64,000 bases of DNA from Acinetobacter amyesii (GTDB lineage Bacteria; Pseudomonadota; Gammaproteobacteria; Pseudomonadales; Moraxellaceae). Below the pieces are notes generated by a model. That model did no database searches, was not told where the DNA came from, and saw nothing but the letters and a program-made list of their open reading frames with translations. The first letter of the stretch is position 1; each line of letters begins with the position of its first letter. Positions 7,826-64,000 of the stretch are shown here, one piece after another. The stretch covers positions 1 through 64,000 of the forward strand of contig NZ_MVKX01000001.1 in assembly GCF_002018365.1 (NCBI RefSeq), read 5' to 3'. Both the position numbers and the translations under genes were made by a program.

Positions 7826-8185
7826 TTAATGAATAATGGTACGTATCACCGCAAAATAAAGAATCAATGCAATAATCGCCAAAACGATAAATACTGCAAA
7901 AATACTCATTCCACCCTCTGCATGCGCAGGATGTAAATCATCATCATCGGCGATTTTGAGTAATTCGCCATTATATGCATTGTAAAATTCTAAGCGCTGT
8001 CCCTTATCTAAATCCCGTGTGAAATCATATACACGTTTGCGCTGTGCTAAACCAAAATCCCCTAAATGAATCTCCTGATGAAAAATTGCGTCATCAAGAT
8101 TGCGACGATGTAGATGTGCCAATTCCACAATTTGCGCTAATGTCGGAGGATAATCTAAAGTTAAACCGTCTAAAACTTTTGTCAT
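7826..8185 (-). CDS. C-terminally anchored membrane protein, unknown
   Basis: A 119-residue protein with a soluble, charged N-terminal ~90 residues (four consecutive Asp near 80) and a single hydrophobic helix near the C terminus (FAVFIVLAIIALILYFAV), the layout of a tail-anchored protein. AAGGAG lies 7 bases before the ATG. No known domain is recognised. It lies close to the preceding membrane protein gene on the same strand, with 109 bases between them. Confidence 0.7.
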   Translation of the reverse strand: MTKVLDGLTLDYPPTLAQIVELAHLHRRNLDDAIFHQEIHLGDFGLAQRKRVYDFTRDLDKGQRLEFYNAYNGELLKIADDDDLHPAHAEGGMSIFAVFIVLAIIALILYFAVIRTIIH

Positions 8186-8298
8186 TTTACTTCTCCTTAT
8201 TATCTACAACTTCTTATGTTAGTATTTTACTCATGAAAACAATTGTTCATTGTTTAATCATGTAAACTATAGCAAATTAGAAATATTTACGTGAATAG

Positions 8299-8327
8299 TT
8301 GACAATTTAAGATAATTGTAATATTAG
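8299..8327 (+). promoter_or_regulatory. Probable sigma-70 promoter of the Sel1-like gene
   Basis: A perfect TTGACA (8299-8304) is followed after 17 bases by TATTAG (8322-8327), a 4-of-6 match to the -10 consensus. It lies ~80 bases before the ATG at 8408. Confidence 0.5.
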
Positions 8328-8407
8328 TTTAATAATACTTAGTTATATTAGTTAATAGGGCTAAAGAATGGGCCCTTAATGATCATAATTAGAATAAGGA
8401 GTTAAAT

Positions 8408-8641
8408 ATGATTCAACAATTCTCTCAACATGAACTCGAACATGTATACGCAAATGCGGTAAACACAATTCAATCTCAAATGAACTTCAGCGATGCAGTT
8501 CACGAATTGGAAGATGCAGCTCGTGCTGGACATGGTAAAGCAGCGTTATTTTTGGCTGAACTTTATTATCAAGGCTTCCGCGTAGAACGTGACTCACTCA
8601 AAGCGCAATATTGGCAGAACATGGCCACCTTGCAAGCATAA
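8408..8641 (+). CDS. Short Sel1-like repeat protein
   Basis: A 77-residue cytoplasmic protein that is essentially one Sel1/TPR-like unit: ELEDAARAGHGKAALFLAELYYQG followed by the start of a second repeat helix (DSLKAQYWQNMA) has the A-x-G-x-A-x2-L-x3-Y-x2-G pattern. Sel1 repeats mediate protein contacts; the partner is unknown. AAGGAG at 8396-8401 gives a strong ribosome site and a terminator follows directly, so this is a stand-alone gene. Confidence 0.8.
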   Translation: MIQQFSQHELEHVYANAVNTIQSQMNFSDAVHELEDAARAGHGKAALFLAELYYQGFRVERDSLKAQYWQNMATLQA

Positions 8642-8642
8642 C

Positions 8643-8668
8643 AAAACGTCACTAAGGTGGCGTTTTTT
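8643..8668 (+). terminator. Rho-independent terminator of the Sel1-like gene
   Basis: AAAACGTCAC pairs with GTGGCGTTTT, with one wobble and a 4-base loop, and ends in a T run, two bases after the stop codon. Confidence 0.8.
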
Positions 8669-8777
8669 ACACCCTTCAACTTTTAACTACATAAATTCTT
8701 ACAATCCAGTTCAAAGCTTACACAGCTTTTACATAAGAATTTCCTACAATAGGAGCAACATCAACAACACGCTGCAT

Positions 8778-9158
8778 ATGATGTCTAAATTAAAGCAATA
8801 TAAACCTATTCCAAAAGATTTATTTTTCAAAATTAGTATTTTAAAAACCATGATGTACTGTGGAGTCCTTTGGGGTCTCTACCACCAACAAGGTTGGGCA
8901 ATGACCAGCGATCAAGATCATATTATCTTCCCGTTTTGGCTAAATGGCATTCAAGCGCATAAATATGCCAAAAAGCATTGGCCCAACTACACTCCACGAC
9001 GCATTACACCAGAAGATTTTGAGGCATCGCTATTACCGACATTAACACGCCTTAAAGTCATCCCTGCGTTGCATAGCTCTAGCCATATCCGTCTCAAGCT
9101 CACAACCTCGCAAATGCGTTTATTCTTTTTTAACCAAGATAAGATTCAAATGGCATAA
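8778..9158 (+). CDS. DUF2750-like protein
   Basis: A ~126-residue protein with the pattern WGLYHQQGWAM...FPFW...A.K.AKKHWPNYTPRRIT, which I take as the DUF2750 family of unknown function. The ATG pair at 8778/8781 is the likely start. The only strong AGGAG (8751-8755) is 22 bases upstream with no usable in-frame start near it, so translation initiation is uncertain. The open frame runs further upstream, but through the preceding terminator, so that part is not coding. Confidence 0.7.
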   Translation: MMSKLKQYKPIPKDLFFKISILKTMMYCGVLWGLYHQQGWAMTSDQDHIIFPFWLNGIQAHKYAKKHWPNYTPRRITPEDFEASLLPTLTRLKVIPALHSSSHIRLKLTTSQMRLFFFNQDKIQMA

Positions 9159-9264
9159 AACCCTCAGTGCATGCTTGACCACAGCATGCACTGAAAAGTA
9201 TTTGCTTTTTTCAAATTTCGCGCTAATTTAAATTAAACAAAAACTACTATAAAGGAATGAAAAT

Positions 9265-9696
9265 ATGACTACAGTTGCCCAAGTACTTAAAGACAAAGCT
9301 TATCAAGAAATCTACACCATCACCCCAGATGCGACTGTACTCGAAGCCATTTCCCTGATGGCACAAAAAGGCATTGGTGCCCTCGTCGTGACCCATGAAG
9401 GCACAGTCGTTGGGATTTTGTCTGAGCGTGATTACACACGTAAAATTGCACTCATGGAAAGAACCTCTTTCGATACCTCCGTCAGTGAAATTATGACGGG
9501 TAGTGTCATCACTGTAACAAGTGCAGCGACTGTCGAAGAATGTTTAAAACTCATGACAGATCGCCATTTACGTCATTTACCTGTCGTTGAGGAACAGAAA
9601 TTAACAGGCTTAATCTCCATCGGTGACCTTGTAAAAGCAGCAATGGATGATCAACGCAAACTCATTGAACAGCTACAGCAATATATTTCTGGCTAA
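9265..9696 (+). CDS. CBS domain-pair protein
   Basis: A 143-residue stand-alone Bateman module. The first CBS motif covers about residues 10-65 (ATVLEAISLMAQKGIGALVV...VGILSERDY) and the second about 75-130 (SAATVEECLKLMTDRHLRHLPVV...LTGLISIGDLV). Such modules bind adenine nucleotides and act as energy or redox sensors. AAAGGA lies ~9 bases before the ATG. A stable hairpin follows the stop codon. Confidence 0.93.
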   Translation: MTTVAQVLKDKAYQEIYTITPDATVLEAISLMAQKGIGALVVTHEGTVVGILSERDYTRKIALMERTSFDTSVSEIMTGSVITVTSAATVEECLKLMTDRHLRHLPVVEEQKLTGLISIGDLVKAAMDDQRKLIEQLQQYISG

Positions 9697-9701
9697 ACTT
9701 A

Positions 9702-9735
9702 AAAATCCCCCTTAACAAGCTTTAAGGGGGGAATT
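9702..9735 (+). terminator. Hairpin terminator after the CBS gene
   Basis: AATCCCCCTTAA pairs with TTAAGGGGGGAATT around a short loop. The plus-strand T run is weak (AATTCTAAAT), while the minus strand would end in T5, so it may act in both directions or mainly as an end-protecting hairpin. Confidence 0.6.
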
Positions 9736-9819
9736 CTAAATATCAATAATTTTATATAACTCACATTTTGTAATGACATACACATTACAACTTAATTACT
9801 TTTCTCAATTTCCTTTCTT

Positions 9820-10170
9820 ATGTTGAAACTCGCTTTAGATAAATTAGACCAACTAGATGCCATCATTTTAGAATTAGAACGCTTAATGTTTTCGATGAAA
9901 GACGATGAACTGCTGCAATACCACCGACGTACGATTAATTTGGAGATTGCTTCTACTATCGCTGAAATTTTAGATGCAAAGGCAATTATTTATGCACTAC
10001 ATCCTGAGTTAATTCCAATTACATCAAGCGTTAACCACACTTTTTATAAAAATTATGTCAAAAAAAATATCCCAGTTAAAAACTGGGATACTTCGAATAT
10101 AGATCGGGCTATACAACTGCAAAAGATTTTTGCACCATCAACAGATGATGAGCAACTTAGTCTTTTTTAA
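9820..10170 (+). CDS. Small helical protein ending in a beta-clamp-binding motif
   Basis: A 116-residue, mostly helical, charged protein of no family I recognise. Its last residues are DDEQLSLF, an exact fit to the QL(S/D)LF sliding-clamp (DnaN) binding pentapeptide found at the ends of Pol V, Hda and other clamp clients. This suggests, but does not prove, a role at the replication fork or in repair. No Shine-Dalgarno is visible before the ATG (the bases are pyrimidine-rich), so the message may be leaderless or have an unusual start. The trpB terminator lies within its coding sequence on the other strand. Confidence 0.7.
   Translation: MLKLALDKLDQLDAIILELERLMFSMKDDELLQYHRRTINLEIASTIAEILDAKAIIYALHPELIPITSSVNHTFYKNYVKKNIPVKNWDTSNIDRAIQLQKIFAPSTDDEQLSLF
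10061..10090 (-). terminator. trpB Rho-independent terminator inside a convergent gene
   Basis: TATCCCAGTT (10068-10077) and AACTGGGATA (10081-10090) form a perfect 10-bp stem with a 3-base loop. On the minus strand the stem runs into eight T. It lies 90 bases after the trpB stop and inside the coding sequence of the plus-strand clamp-motif gene. Confidence 0.85.
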
Positions 10171-10179
10171 TGGCAGTAA

Positions 10180-11388
10180 TTAATTTAAACCTAATTTTTC
10201 AGCCACATAGTCTGAGTCTTTATCGCCACGGCCTGAAACGTTAACGACAATCTTCACATCTTTGGCAAGATTTGGCGCTTCACGAATTGCCCAAGCAACC
10301 GCATGTGAACTTTCTAGTGCAGGAACAATACCTTCCACACGTGAAAGCGTCATGAAGGCATCTAAACATTCTTGGTCTGTCGCTGTTGTATATTCAACAC
10401 GGCCTAGGTCTTTTAACAAACTATGTTGTGGCCCCACTCCTGGATAATCCAAACCTGATGCAATTGAATGCACTGGTAATGGCTCACCCTGTTCATCTTC
10501 AAGGACATAACATGCCATACCATGAATTTGACTTGGTTTACCCAATGTCAACGTAGCAGAGTGCATATTGGTATCTAAACCATGGCCTGCAGGCTCTACG
10601 CCTACGAGTTTGACATCGGAGTCATTAAGGAATGCTGTAAATGCACCAACGGCATTTGAACCACCACCCACACATGCAACTACATAGTCAGGATTTGCAC
10701 CAAATCGATCATTGGCTTGAACTTTAATTTCATCACCAATAATTGACTGGAAGTCACGGACCATTTTCGGGAATGGATGTGGGCCAACCACTGAACCAAT
10801 CGCATAAATAAAATTGGTTGGATCTTTTAAATATTCTTCAAAAGCGCTATCTACTGCATCTTTGAGTGTAGCTGTACCACGTGTAACAGAGATCAGGTTG
10901 GCACCTAAAATCTTCATTTTCACCACGTTGGGATGTTCTTTTTCAATGTCCACTTGCCCCATGTGAATTTCACATGGAATACCTACCAAGGCACAAGCCG
11001 TTGCCAATGCTACACCATGCTGACCCGCGCCAGTTTCAGCAATCACTTTGGTTTTACCCATGTATTTTGCTAACAAAGCTTCGCCAAGGCAGTGGTTAAT
11101 TTTATGCGCACCGGTATGATTAAGGTCTTCACGCTTGAGATAGATTTGTGCCCCACCTAATTTGTCAGACAAGCGCTTCGCATAAAACAATGGGCTTGGA
11201 CGTCCAACATAGTGAGCAAACAACTCTTTCAATTCATTTTGAAATTCTTCCGTATGACGAATTTGCTCATAAGCAACATTAATGTCATCCATTGCCTGTT
11301 TTAAATCTGGTGGAATGAACTGCCCACCGTATTCACCGAAGAAACCTTCTTCATTAGGTAATGCGATACCATTAATTTGATGATCCAT
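10180..11388 (-). CDS. trpB: Tryptophan synthase beta chain, orphan paralogue type
   Basis: A 402-residue PLP enzyme of the TrpB family, which condenses indole and serine to tryptophan. Visible are the HTGAHKIN motif with the PLP lysine at about 97, the ETGAGQ motif with the catalytic Glu at about 118, the GGGSNA phosphate cup at 241-246 and the C-terminal SGRGDKD. It is unusual in being without trpA and in diverging from standard TrpB, for example HKINH in place of HKINN and the [12 protein letters not shown] segment. The ATG at 11388 is chosen because AAGGA lies 6 bases upstream. A 10-bp inverted repeat lies upstream of the start. Confidence 0.9.
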
Positions 11389-11434
11389 CATATTTCCTTC
11401 ATGTTGTATGCAAAACAAAGACTTTTAAATACTA

Positions 11435-11470
11435 TCCAATTTTGAAAATAAGAAACAATGCAAAATTGGA
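11435..11470 (-). promoter_or_regulatory. Inverted repeat upstream of trpB (operator or leader hairpin)
   Basis: TCCAATTTTG (11435-11444) and CAAAATTGGA (11461-11470) are perfect 10-base inverted arms 16 bases apart. On the minus strand a TTGTTT box and a TAGTAT box with 18-base spacing overlap the repeat, so it could be an operator over the trpB promoter. If transcribed it would instead fold as a leader hairpin. Confidence 0.5.
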
Positions 11471-11519
11471 GTAAGTAATATAAACATCATTGATAAGAAA
11501 AAGTATCGTTTTTAACGCT

Positions 11520-12707
11520 TTAGCGCGCTAAATATTTCGTCATATCTTCCACACCTTTGAGGGTCATCGGGAACATATGATCTTCAAAGATTTGTTTAAT
11601 CGCAGCAATGGTTTGGGTGTAATGCCAATAACTTTCTTCTTCTGGGTTTAACCATGCTGTTTTATCAAAATGATTGCGTAAGCGCTGTAACCACACCTGA
11701 CCCGCTTCATCATTCATATACTCCACAGAACCACCTGCCGAGTTCAACTCATACGGCGCCATACTCGCATCACCAACAACGATGACGCGGTAATCTCGAC
11801 CATAGGTGTTGAATAGATCCCATGTATTCATACGCGTGCTGGAACGGCGAATATTGTCTTTCCATACATAATCATATAAACAGTTATGGAAATAGAAATA
11901 CTCTAAGGTTTTAAATTCCGTTTTTGCAGCAGTAAAGAGCTTCTCACATTGGGCAATATGTGAATCCATCGAGCCCCCAACATCAAACAGCATCAATACT
12001 TTAATGCGGTTACGTCGTTCTGGAACCAACTGCACATCCAAAATACCTTGTTTGGCCGTTTCACGAATGGTTCCGTCGATATCTAGCTCTTCTGCTGCAC
12101 CTTGACGGGCAAATTTACGTAATCGACGCAAAGCCATCTGCATCTGACGACTGCCGAGAATCTGCTCATCATCTAGGTTTCGGTATTGTCGTTGTTCCCA
12201 AACTTTCACCGCAGATCGTTTACGACCAGGCCCACCGATACGCACACCTTCCGGATGGTCTCCATAGGCACCAAAGGGCGAAGTACCACCCGTACCGATC
12301 ATCCGATTACCACCCTGATGCTTTTTATGTTGTTCGCGCAAACGCTCTTCGAGCATTTTCATCAGTTCTTCTAATGATCCGGCTTTTTTTAATTCTTCTC
12401 GTTGTTCTGGTGTTAGATGCTTTTCGATGAGTTCAAGATCAAACCAATCCTTTGGCAGTTTATGCACCTGATTTAATAGCTCATCCAAATCAAAGGTGGC
12501 AATACCGTCAAAATAGTCCTTCATTGCACGGTCGAACTTATCAAAGTAACGTTCATCTTTGACCATGACGGTTTTTGCAAGCTGATAAAATTCATTTTGA
12601 TCTGCAAAGACTAGCCCTGCTGCCACTGCTTGGTTCAAGTCAATCAATTCACGAGTTGAAACTGGAACACCGTATTTTCGAAGGGTATAAAACAATCGCA
12701 CAAACAT
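11520..12707 (-). CDS. CoxE-type VWA domain protein
   Basis: A 395-residue protein of the CoxE/VWA group that works with MoxR AAA+ ATPases as a chaperone or metal-centre maturation pair. The N-terminal half is helical (VPVSTRELIDLNQAV is typical). A Gly-rich linker covers 132-160, and the C-terminal VWA domain starts with KVLMLFDVGGS, with MIDAS residues D242-x-G-x-S246. No signal peptide is present, so it is cytoplasmic. A matching MoxR gene lies ~740 bases upstream on the same strand, with a secreted-protein gene between. No Shine-Dalgarno is obvious. Confidence 0.9.
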   Translation of the reverse strand: MFVRLFYTLRKYGVPVSTRELIDLNQAVAAGLVFADQNEFYQLAKTVMVKDERYFDKFDRAMKDYFDGIATFDLDELLNQVHKLPKDWFDLELIEKHLTPEQREELKKAGSLEELMKMLEERLREQHKKHQGGNRMIGTGGTSPFGAYGDHPEGVRIGGPGRKRSAVKVWEQRQYRNLDDEQILGSRQMQMALRRLRKFARQGAAEELDIDGTIRETAKQGILDVQLVPERRNRIKVLMLFDVGGSMDSHIAQCEKLFTAAKTEFKTLEYFYFHNCLYDYVWKDNIRRSSTRMNTWDLFNTYGRDYRVIVVGDASMAPYELNSAGGSVEYMNDEAGQVWLQRLRNHFDKTAWLNPEEESYWHYTQTIAAIKQIFEDHMFPMTLKGVEDMTKYLAR

Positions 12708-12911
12708 AGGCGAATAAAATCCAATAAAAATTAAATATCAGGAGGTCAAATCCAGTGTGAATGCATGTGATCTTGTTATTTCATCTGCAACTGAGTCTTG
12801 CCTTTACATCCACCATTATGAAAAATTGATCCCTACAAGTAAAGCCAAAAGCTTTTACTGTGTGTTCATATACGTTGCCCTACCTACCCAAAGGAACACA
12901 TACAGCATGAT

Positions 12912-13367
12912 TTATTCGCAAGTCGCATTTCTATTGTTAAGCGATTGTTTAAAAGTTTCATATTTGTGCTGAACTTTGAGGCGATCTTGCTGCAACTTTT
13001 CAATGGTTACGATTTTATGAAAACCTTGATTGTTTTTATAGCGGTTAAAGTCCCTTAGATTCAAGATCACAAAATCATAGTATTTCAGCTCGAGTACAGT
13101 TGCAGCACAGGCCTTTTGCTGAATGGCCGTTTGAGCTGCAAGATGATCTGATTGAACAATGAGCTTTTCTTTAAGTTGATGTTCTGCAACTTGCGCCCAA
13201 TACGCATCTTGGAGTAGCTGTTGATGCTGCTGTTCAAACTGAGCATCATCCATCGCATAGCTAAAACTAGATAAATACAAGCTCGCAGCCAACAAAAGCA
13301 CAGTTGGCTTAAATCTCCTAGGTACAGCTAAATGTACAACACGTGATACGTATGCGCTTGTCTGCAT
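12912..13367 (-). CDS. Secreted protein of unknown function
   Basis: A 151-residue protein with a long N terminus followed by a Sec signal core (TVLLLAASLYLSSFSYA, cleavage expected near residue 38). The mature part is ~110 residues, rich in Gln and Lys, helical, with two Cys (CAATV and the penultimate residue) that could form a disulfide. The family is not recognised. AAAGGTG precedes the ATG at good spacing. It lies between the VWA and MoxR genes on the same strand, so co-transcription is possible, although a terminator stands between MoxR and this gene. Confidence 0.7.
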   Translation of the reverse strand: MQTSAYVSRVVHLAVPRRFKPTVLLLAASLYLSSFSYAMDDAQFEQQHQQLLQDAYWAQVAEHQLKEKLIVQSDHLAAQTAIQQKACAATVLELKYYDFVILNLRDFNRYKNNQGFHKIVTIEKLQQDRLKVQHKYETFKQSLNNRNATCE

Positions 13368-63422: not shown

Positions 63423-64000
63423 ATGAAAGCTGAAAATAAAATATTTGCGTTAGTTGACCTCAACAACTGCTACGTCAGTTGTGAGCGTGTCTTTAACCCA
63501 AAGCTGAATAATGTCCCTGTCGTCGTGCTGTCCAATAACGATGGCTGTGTTGTATCACGAAGTCAGGAAGCCAAAGACCTCGGGATTAAAATGGCTGTGC
63601 CGGTCTATCAAATTCAGGATTTAATCCAACAACATCATGTTCAGGTGTTGTCGAGTAACTATGCACTCTACACCGAAATGTCAAATCGATTTATGAATAT
63701 TTTAGGCATGTATGTCGGCCCCGAAGACCGTGAAGTTTACTCGATCGATGAGTGTTTTTTAGATCTTACCGCCTATCAAGAACTGTTCGACTTGAGCCTA
63801 TATGCCAAAGAAATACGAGATACGATCCTAAAATGGCTAGGTTTAACCTGCTGTGTCGGGATTGGTCGCTCTAAAACGGAAGCCAAAATGGCTAATCATC
63901 TTGCCAAAAAAAATGCGTATTTGAACGGTGTGTGTAATTTAATTGAGATGGACCCGTGTTCCTCAGAACAACTCCTTGCGCAGACACCAATCAATGAAGT
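63423..64000 (+). CDS. umuC: DNA polymerase V catalytic subunit UmuC (partial)
   Basis: UmuC is a Y-family lesion-bypass polymerase. The 192 codons visible start MKAENKIFALVDLNNCYVSCERVFNP (first Asp ligand) and contain VVVLSNNDGCVVSRSQEAK and YSIDECFLDL with the Asp-Glu catalytic pair. The C-terminal half, including any QLNLF-type clamp motif, is outside the window. It lies 15 bases after umuD, so the two form an operon. The Shine-Dalgarno is weak. Confidence 0.95.
   Translation, partial: MKAENKIFALVDLNNCYVSCERVFNPKLNNVPVVVLSNNDGCVVSRSQEAKDLGIKMAVPVYQIQDLIQQHHVQVLSSNYALYTEMSNRFMNILGMYVGPEDREVYSIDECFLDLTAYQELFDLSLYAKEIRDTILKWLGLTCCVGIGRSKTEAKMANHLAKKNAYLNGVCNLIEMDPCSSEQLLAQTPINE

Follow-up and report, generated by a model that had tools for sequence, protein, structure and literature searches.

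A lineage-specific Acinetobacter protein with a conserved C-terminal QLSLF motif, a candidate client of the DnaN sliding clamp

Introduction

Several bacterial proteins reach replicating DNA by docking on the sliding clamp DnaN through a short clamp-binding motif (CBM), and the list of such proteins is said in two papers to be incomplete (PMC13254535, PMC11139829). In this work we focused on an open reading frame (ORF) lying in a window of 64,000 nucleotides at the start of contig NZ_MVKX01000001.1 of Acinetobacter amyesii. Its product ends in QLSLF, and an earlier note on this DNA had proposed it as a sliding-clamp client. The locus raises the question of whether this tail is kept as a CBM and, if so, what kind of protein carries it and how its gene came to lie where it does.

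Results

An orphan gene under purifying selection

When the sequence was re-read, the ORF was found as it had been described, with an ATG start, 116 codons and the end STDDEQLSLF-stop; visual inspection revealed no clear ribosome-binding site ahead of it. The features of the locus are collected in Table 1.

Table 1. Features of the locus, in coordinates of the window
Feature	Position	Strand	Basis or remark
Upstream neighbour: CBS-domain protein, 143 aa	9265..9696	+	ORF and domain reading
Hairpin between CBS gene and ORF	9707..9730		terminator scan
Palindrome TTGTAATG-N7-CATTACAA, upstream of ORF	9768..9790		related element at the same place in some non-carriers
Orphan ORF, 116 aa: helical hairpin body (predicted), variable linker, C-terminal QLSLF	9820..10170	+	5 orthologues; pN/pS
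Helical body (predicted), residues 19-74	9874..10041	+	conserved RRTINLE block in helix 2; variable loop 66-74
Most conserved longer block, FYK.YV.KNIPVKNWD, residues 75-90	10042..10089	+	91% identity; doubly constrained
Intrinsic-terminator-like hairpin for trpB, inside ORF	10060..10090	-	10-bp stem, 3-nt loop, then 8-U run
Variable linker, residues 91-111	10090..10152	+	39% pairwise identity, 30 gapped residue pairs
Clamp-binding motif QLSLF, residues 112-116	10153..10167	+	conservation; synonymous changes in 3/5 codons
Convergent neighbour: trpB (PLP-dependent enzyme)	10180..11418	-

A protein search of 99 genomes of the genus found an orthologue in three of them, and a profile built from those three found one in 5 of 175 Acinetobacter genomes, the window's own genome being included in both counts. 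The four other carriers are A. gandensis (G041), A. tianfuensis (G039), A. cumulans (G110) and Acinetobacter sp. ANC 5054 (G146). Genome contigs gave 72 pattern matches and four relatives, every one of them in Acinetobacter. The flanks are the same in all five loci, with a CBS-domain gene on one side and trpB on the other. Tandem CBS-domain genes, the second copy being more diverged, were seen in two Acinetobacter genomes (G015 C14:6766-7722 and G055 C1:923370-924339), and the window's genome contains two trpB matches, the second copies listed in other genomes being ~52-53% identical to the window's trpB.

The five orthologues have intact frames of 116-123 codons, and the indels of their codon alignment are all in-frame. 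In nine of the ten pairs pN was 0.21-0.32 against a pS of 0.58-0.81, and in the tenth (A. tianfuensis and A. cumulans) 0.06 against 0.21, the pairwise pN/pS ranging overall from 0.29 to 0.47. The dN/dS ratio was 0.10-0.31 in seven pairs, dS being saturated in the other three. At the level of sequence comparison, this establishes the ORF as a real gene under purifying selection.

A canonical motif kept at the end of a variable linker

QLSLF is the DnaN-binding consensus pentapeptide, as had been claimed, and is published as such (PMC12309361, PMC4549789). Using assumed amino-acid frequencies rather than those of this genome, we computed the number expected by chance per 3200 proteins as ~0.005 for an exact C-terminal QLSLF and ~0.8 for loose CBMs at the exact C terminus, so that in a single genome the motif is suggestive at most and the case has to be carried by its conservation. 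The degenerate DNA word for QLSLF-stop is not enriched as such, since a scan of the 3.4-Mb genome gave four matches on the two strands versus five for a reversed control. The window ORF has the only true QLSLF-stop and is also the sole match to end a long frame; the other three matches read QLTFF-stop, QLSLF-Trp and QLRLF-stop, and their open stretches measure 12, 45 and 6 codons, respectively.

Four of the five orthologues have QLSLF and one has QLSLL, the tails being QLSLF-stop (window and A. gandensis), QLSLFTKID, QLSLFRNID and QLSLLDSSD. All five fit the definition Q-aliphatic-x-[L/M]-[F/L] given in PMC11139829, and the motif lies at the C terminus or at most four residues from it in each. 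The extreme C-terminal position pointed out for the window protein is thus an exact end in two of the five orthologues, whereas four further residues follow the motif in the other three.

Pairwise identity reaches 46 of 50 pair-positions (92%) in the motif versus 65 of 165 in the linker; in the N-terminal 18 residues, 61 of 180 are identical. The Q codon (CAA or CAG) and both L codons vary synonymously with the residues kept, the S codon does not vary, and the motif closes with TTT in four orthologues and with CTT in one. In a neutral simulation, which was crude, its branch lengths and base frequencies being set by hand with the pN/pS comparison as a guide, none of 200,000 runs at full branch length retained QLSLF in four species; the fraction of runs that did so was ~1e-5 at half and 0.002 at a quarter of that length. 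An alignment of homologues had been suggested in the earlier note as a check on the motif, a C terminus not shared among them being named as a refutation; this outcome was not observed, the CBM being present in all five intact orthologues and decayed in one broken copy described below. The aligned sequences demonstrate that a canonical CBM has persisted while synonymous sites came close to saturation and the linker was scrambled.

Predicted structure and family searches

AlphaFold2, run on an alignment of the five sequences, gave a model of the window protein with a mean pLDDT of 80.6 and a pTM of 0.68, in which helices are predicted at residues 2-26, 30-60, 73-83 and 94-104 and a one-turn helix at 110-113, the pLDDT falling below 50 from residue 109 to the end at 116. 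The model of the ANC 5054 protein has the same arrangement (pLDDT 77.3, pTM 0.71, and below 50 at residues 115-123); both models rest on the same number of sequences, five. The folded part would thus consist of a helical hairpin (~2-26 and 30-60) followed by shorter helices, and the two models agree with the helical body expected from the sequence.

The body had also been considered unlike known clamp clients, and this view holds as far as sequence libraries go, as no credible family match was obtained. With the window protein and two orthologues as queries, Pfam gave 0 families at E <= 10 and the best PHROGs match, at 0.055, was at chance level; NCBIfam, for which three of the five proteins were run, gave one chance-level match (0.016) on one orthologue. 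All five proteins were compared with PADLOC, and its two weak matches (0.0028 and 0.017), both to one and the same orthologue, were treated as chance. So was the OXA-1 beta-lactamase, the best of three solved-structure chains found at E <= 10, which matched with E 0.13 over 30 residues covering KNIPVKNWD. Foldseek returned 51 matches in the PDB and 68 in BFVD at E <= 10, and none in either at E <= 0.001. The best VIA-align Z was 6.4, within the range that the tool itself describes as frequent among helical models, and we therefore claim neither a shared nor a new fold. In the open-access papers searched, no title or abstract opening on such a protein was found. The docking mode is already known; the protein family is absent from the sequence libraries searched.

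A probable client of the host clamp

The genome has one beta-clamp match, which aligns end to end with the solved clamp 6ap4 (722 bits) and keeps the segments TDGHRL, FPDY and YVVMPMR, which line the cleft. This alignment identifies the host DnaN as a canonical clamp. H175 and M362 are the cleft residues named in PMC11139829. A peptide of PolC binds the DnaN of Bacillus subtilis with a KD of 3.8 uM, about five-fold weaker than the same motif on the Escherichia coli clamp (PMC12309361), and a transposase engineered to carry QLSLF bound three clamps (PMC4549789). The DinB protein of the same Acinetobacter genome ends in ETQLSLL, near-identical to the QLSLF of the window protein.

Taken together, the kept motif and the canonical clamp make it probable that the ORF product binds DnaN through the cleft. 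The protein would then be a vertically inherited, lineage-specific one that docks on the sliding clamp, its variable linker carrying the C-terminal QLSLF and the latter inserting into the hydrophobic cleft, where DinB and other clients bind as well. The clamp would serve as an anchor at replicating DNA, and the conserved helical body would recruit or block another factor; alternatively, the product may act by competing for the cleft. Tentatively, we regard it as a non-enzymatic adaptor or regulator whose actual function would be carried by the helical body. A gene that evolves this fast, and that at least one species has lost, would fit an accessory rather than an essential role.

Several observations were counted against docking. 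The orthologues are five only, two of them close (A. tianfuensis and A. cumulans), one has QLSLL, three extend four residues past the motif, and a motif of five residues is short. Both models place a one-turn helix at the motif, at low confidence. Finally, of three Y-family proteins in the genome, two UmuC-like ones showed no Q-x-x-[LMI]-[FLW] by the script pattern, so that some expected clients come without it. The window itself has a Y-family polymerase (UmuC-like) domain near its end (63453-63896, + strand), in a protein with no CBM by the pattern used.

Some of these points would also suit a tail kept for reasons other than clamp binding, for instance because it packs against the rest of the molecule or is recognised by a different partner, the likeness to a CBM being accidental. 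For so short a motif, with a loose version expected under the assumed frequencies at the exact C terminus of about one protein per proteome, and with a one-turn helix predicted at its position, such a coincidence is conceivable. We nevertheless judge it rather unlikely, because what is conserved is the exact consensus pentapeptide and it lies in the low-confidence tail of both models, and because the variation from F to L is allowed by the CBM definition (PMC11139829) and is displayed by the host DinB too.

As to the job of the body, no operon partner, no adjacent repair gene and no regulatory signal was found as a clue. The link to DNA damage that the earlier note had brought up found no counterpart at the locus, in that there is no repair gene among the neighbours read (window 7826-13367) and the upstream palindrome gives no regulon signal. 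An exact copy of this palindrome occurs once in the genome, and 31 sites with at most two mismatches, which is not above the 39 of a control, so that no regulon is claimed for it. Blastn located related sequence at the corresponding position in four non-carrier gaps out of 24 (G068, G075, G169 and G170), and the palindrome is thus not specific to the ORF.

History of the locus and a broken copy

Thirty loci collected through the CBS protein comprised three carriers, 18 loci with trpB next at 56-272 bp and nine without trpB by the script, among which L027 does have trpB, overlooked by the script pattern. Thirty collected through trpB comprised five carriers, 23 loci with the CBS gene at 64-414 bp (G084 included) and two with none recognised in reach. 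The CBS-trpB gap of non-carriers is mostly short, with hairpin-like repeats seen by eye.

A tree was built from the trpB genes of 37 genomes. The five carriers, together with G084, fall into two groups in it (support 0.974 and 0.982), joined at a local support of 0.458 beside the non-carrier G035; the group with G035 has a support of 0.982. The closest carrier to G084 in this tree is A. cumulans (G110). The CBS-trpB gap of G084 (locus L065) measures 304 bp and matches the A. tianfuensis locus by blastn at 85% over 74 bases and that of A. cumulans at 89% over 55 bases. The gene lacks the greater part of its first portion there, its frame is disrupted, and QLSLF is no longer spelled by the bases that align with the motif; the terminator hairpin is still present. 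In this one case, then, absence of the protein goes with a decayed tail and a preserved hairpin. A single origin of the gene is likely from these comparisons, and vertical descent plus loss in G084 would be their simplest reading.

In a check for remnants, 7 of 24 non-carrier gaps had a blastn match to carriers at E <= 0.01. G084 was clear, and four others had the palindrome, as described above. G042 was rejected as a lost copy, since only its hairpin matches the carriers. In G059, 28 bases of the gap (bases 77-103) resemble those encoding FNHDFYK in A. cumulans (E 2.4e-4), which may be chance or an old remnant. The 414-bp gap of G037 (L064) had no blastn match to carriers; an 11-bp direct repeat, CTCGATATGAG, borders an insertion in it, perhaps a small mobile element, that seemingly splits an original hairpin.

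Outside the genus, no credible relative turned up in samples of genomes from the family, order and class, in phage and plasmid records or in viral contigs. In the family-level sample, 5 of 149 genomes matched at E <= 0.1, one being the window's own; the other four had weak matches at six places, with the strongest (E 0.0019) lying in another genus (G227), and the two of the six that were read (L041 and L042) are other genes with no copy of the locus. The only match was the window's own genome among the 390 genomes sampled at order level, and again among the 369 at class level. Phage records gave no relative of the window and ANC 5054 proteins, nor plasmid records of the window and A. tianfuensis proteins, and viral contigs gave 46 pattern matches with no relative among them.

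The patchy occurrence of the gene, its loss in G084 and the small size of its product would also suit an inhibitor of growth, the tail occupying the DnaN cleft, blocking polymerases in the manner of the toxins SocB and RipA and thereby slowing or arresting replication; these toxins target the same region of the clamp (PMC12795458). However, the five loci have no partner gene, their neighbours being the CBS gene and the convergent trpB. The position of the gene is fixed, the phage and plasmid records gave no match for the queries tried, and the purifying selection is long-term with no antitoxin adjacent. On balance we hold such an inhibitor to be unlikely, and a docking adaptor or regulator inherited vertically is the reading that we retain.

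The frame of the gene passes through the trpB terminator and stops next to, or slightly beyond, the end of trpB, and the searches described gave no credible relative outside the genus, so that a birth between genes may be envisaged: a young replisome-docking gene would have arisen in one Acinetobacter lineage, perhaps from the CBS-trpB intergenic region, and gained a consensus clamp tag. We give this scenario a small chance; if true, a motif of five residues would have connected a young gene to the replication machinery.

A probable trpB terminator inside the gene

The hairpin proper spans 10068-10090 and is followed by eight U on the minus strand, which gives it the shape of an intrinsic terminator for trpB. 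It was absent from the listing of the consensus terminator scan and became visible by folding and reading of the sequence, and its segment folds with a z of -3.6 to -5.6 in all five orthologous loci. The bases encoding KNIPVKNWD are almost invariant among the five orthologues, and as they also form this probable trpB terminator on the other strand, their invariance would be partly a DNA or RNA constraint. The high identity of residues 75-90 is thus probably due in part to trpB. With a gene and its neighbour's terminator on the same bases, caution is called for, the longest conserved block being a poorer guide to function than the short tail.

That the whole ORF might be non-coding intergenic sequence, conserved on account of this hairpin and its block nearly invariant in DNA, is most improbable and already contradicted by the five intact frames with in-frame indels only, by the strong synonymous excess and by the broken copy in G084, which keeps the hairpin while the remainder decays.

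Comparison with known systems

Like the established CBM clients DinB (Pol IV), PolC and Pol II, the window protein has a canonical terminal CBM, and that of B. subtilis PolC is identical to QLSLF (PMC12309361). Unlike these three, it is a protein of 116 residues without a recognised polymerase, repair or other enzyme domain.

Regulators of replication initiation offer a second comparison. Hda has an AAA+ domain; for the window protein, as for two orthologues, Pfam gave no family. The likeness to Hda lies in a CBM carried by a disordered terminus, N-terminal in Hda and C-terminal here; that of Hda, which takes part in regulating initiation, is of the QLSLPL type (PMC11139829). YabA, a controller of replication initiation in low-GC Gram-positive bacteria, binds both DnaN and DnaA and shares with the window protein a helical N-terminal part and flexible linkers (PMC4705661). 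It binds through a Zn-binding C-terminal domain, whereas the window protein, which is devoid of cysteine, has another predicted C-terminal layout and terminates in a CBM, the two being compared by description only.

SocB and RipA act on DnaN at the hydrophobic pocket (PMC12795458). They are members of toxin-antitoxin systems, and the ORF has no adjacent antitoxin gene in any of its five loci.

For working out the role of the window protein, QLSLF provides a simple tag and G084 a natural loss. Set beside the systems above, a small client that has no enzyme domain recognised in it and is restricted to few species would show that the set of clamp partners is still changing within a genus.
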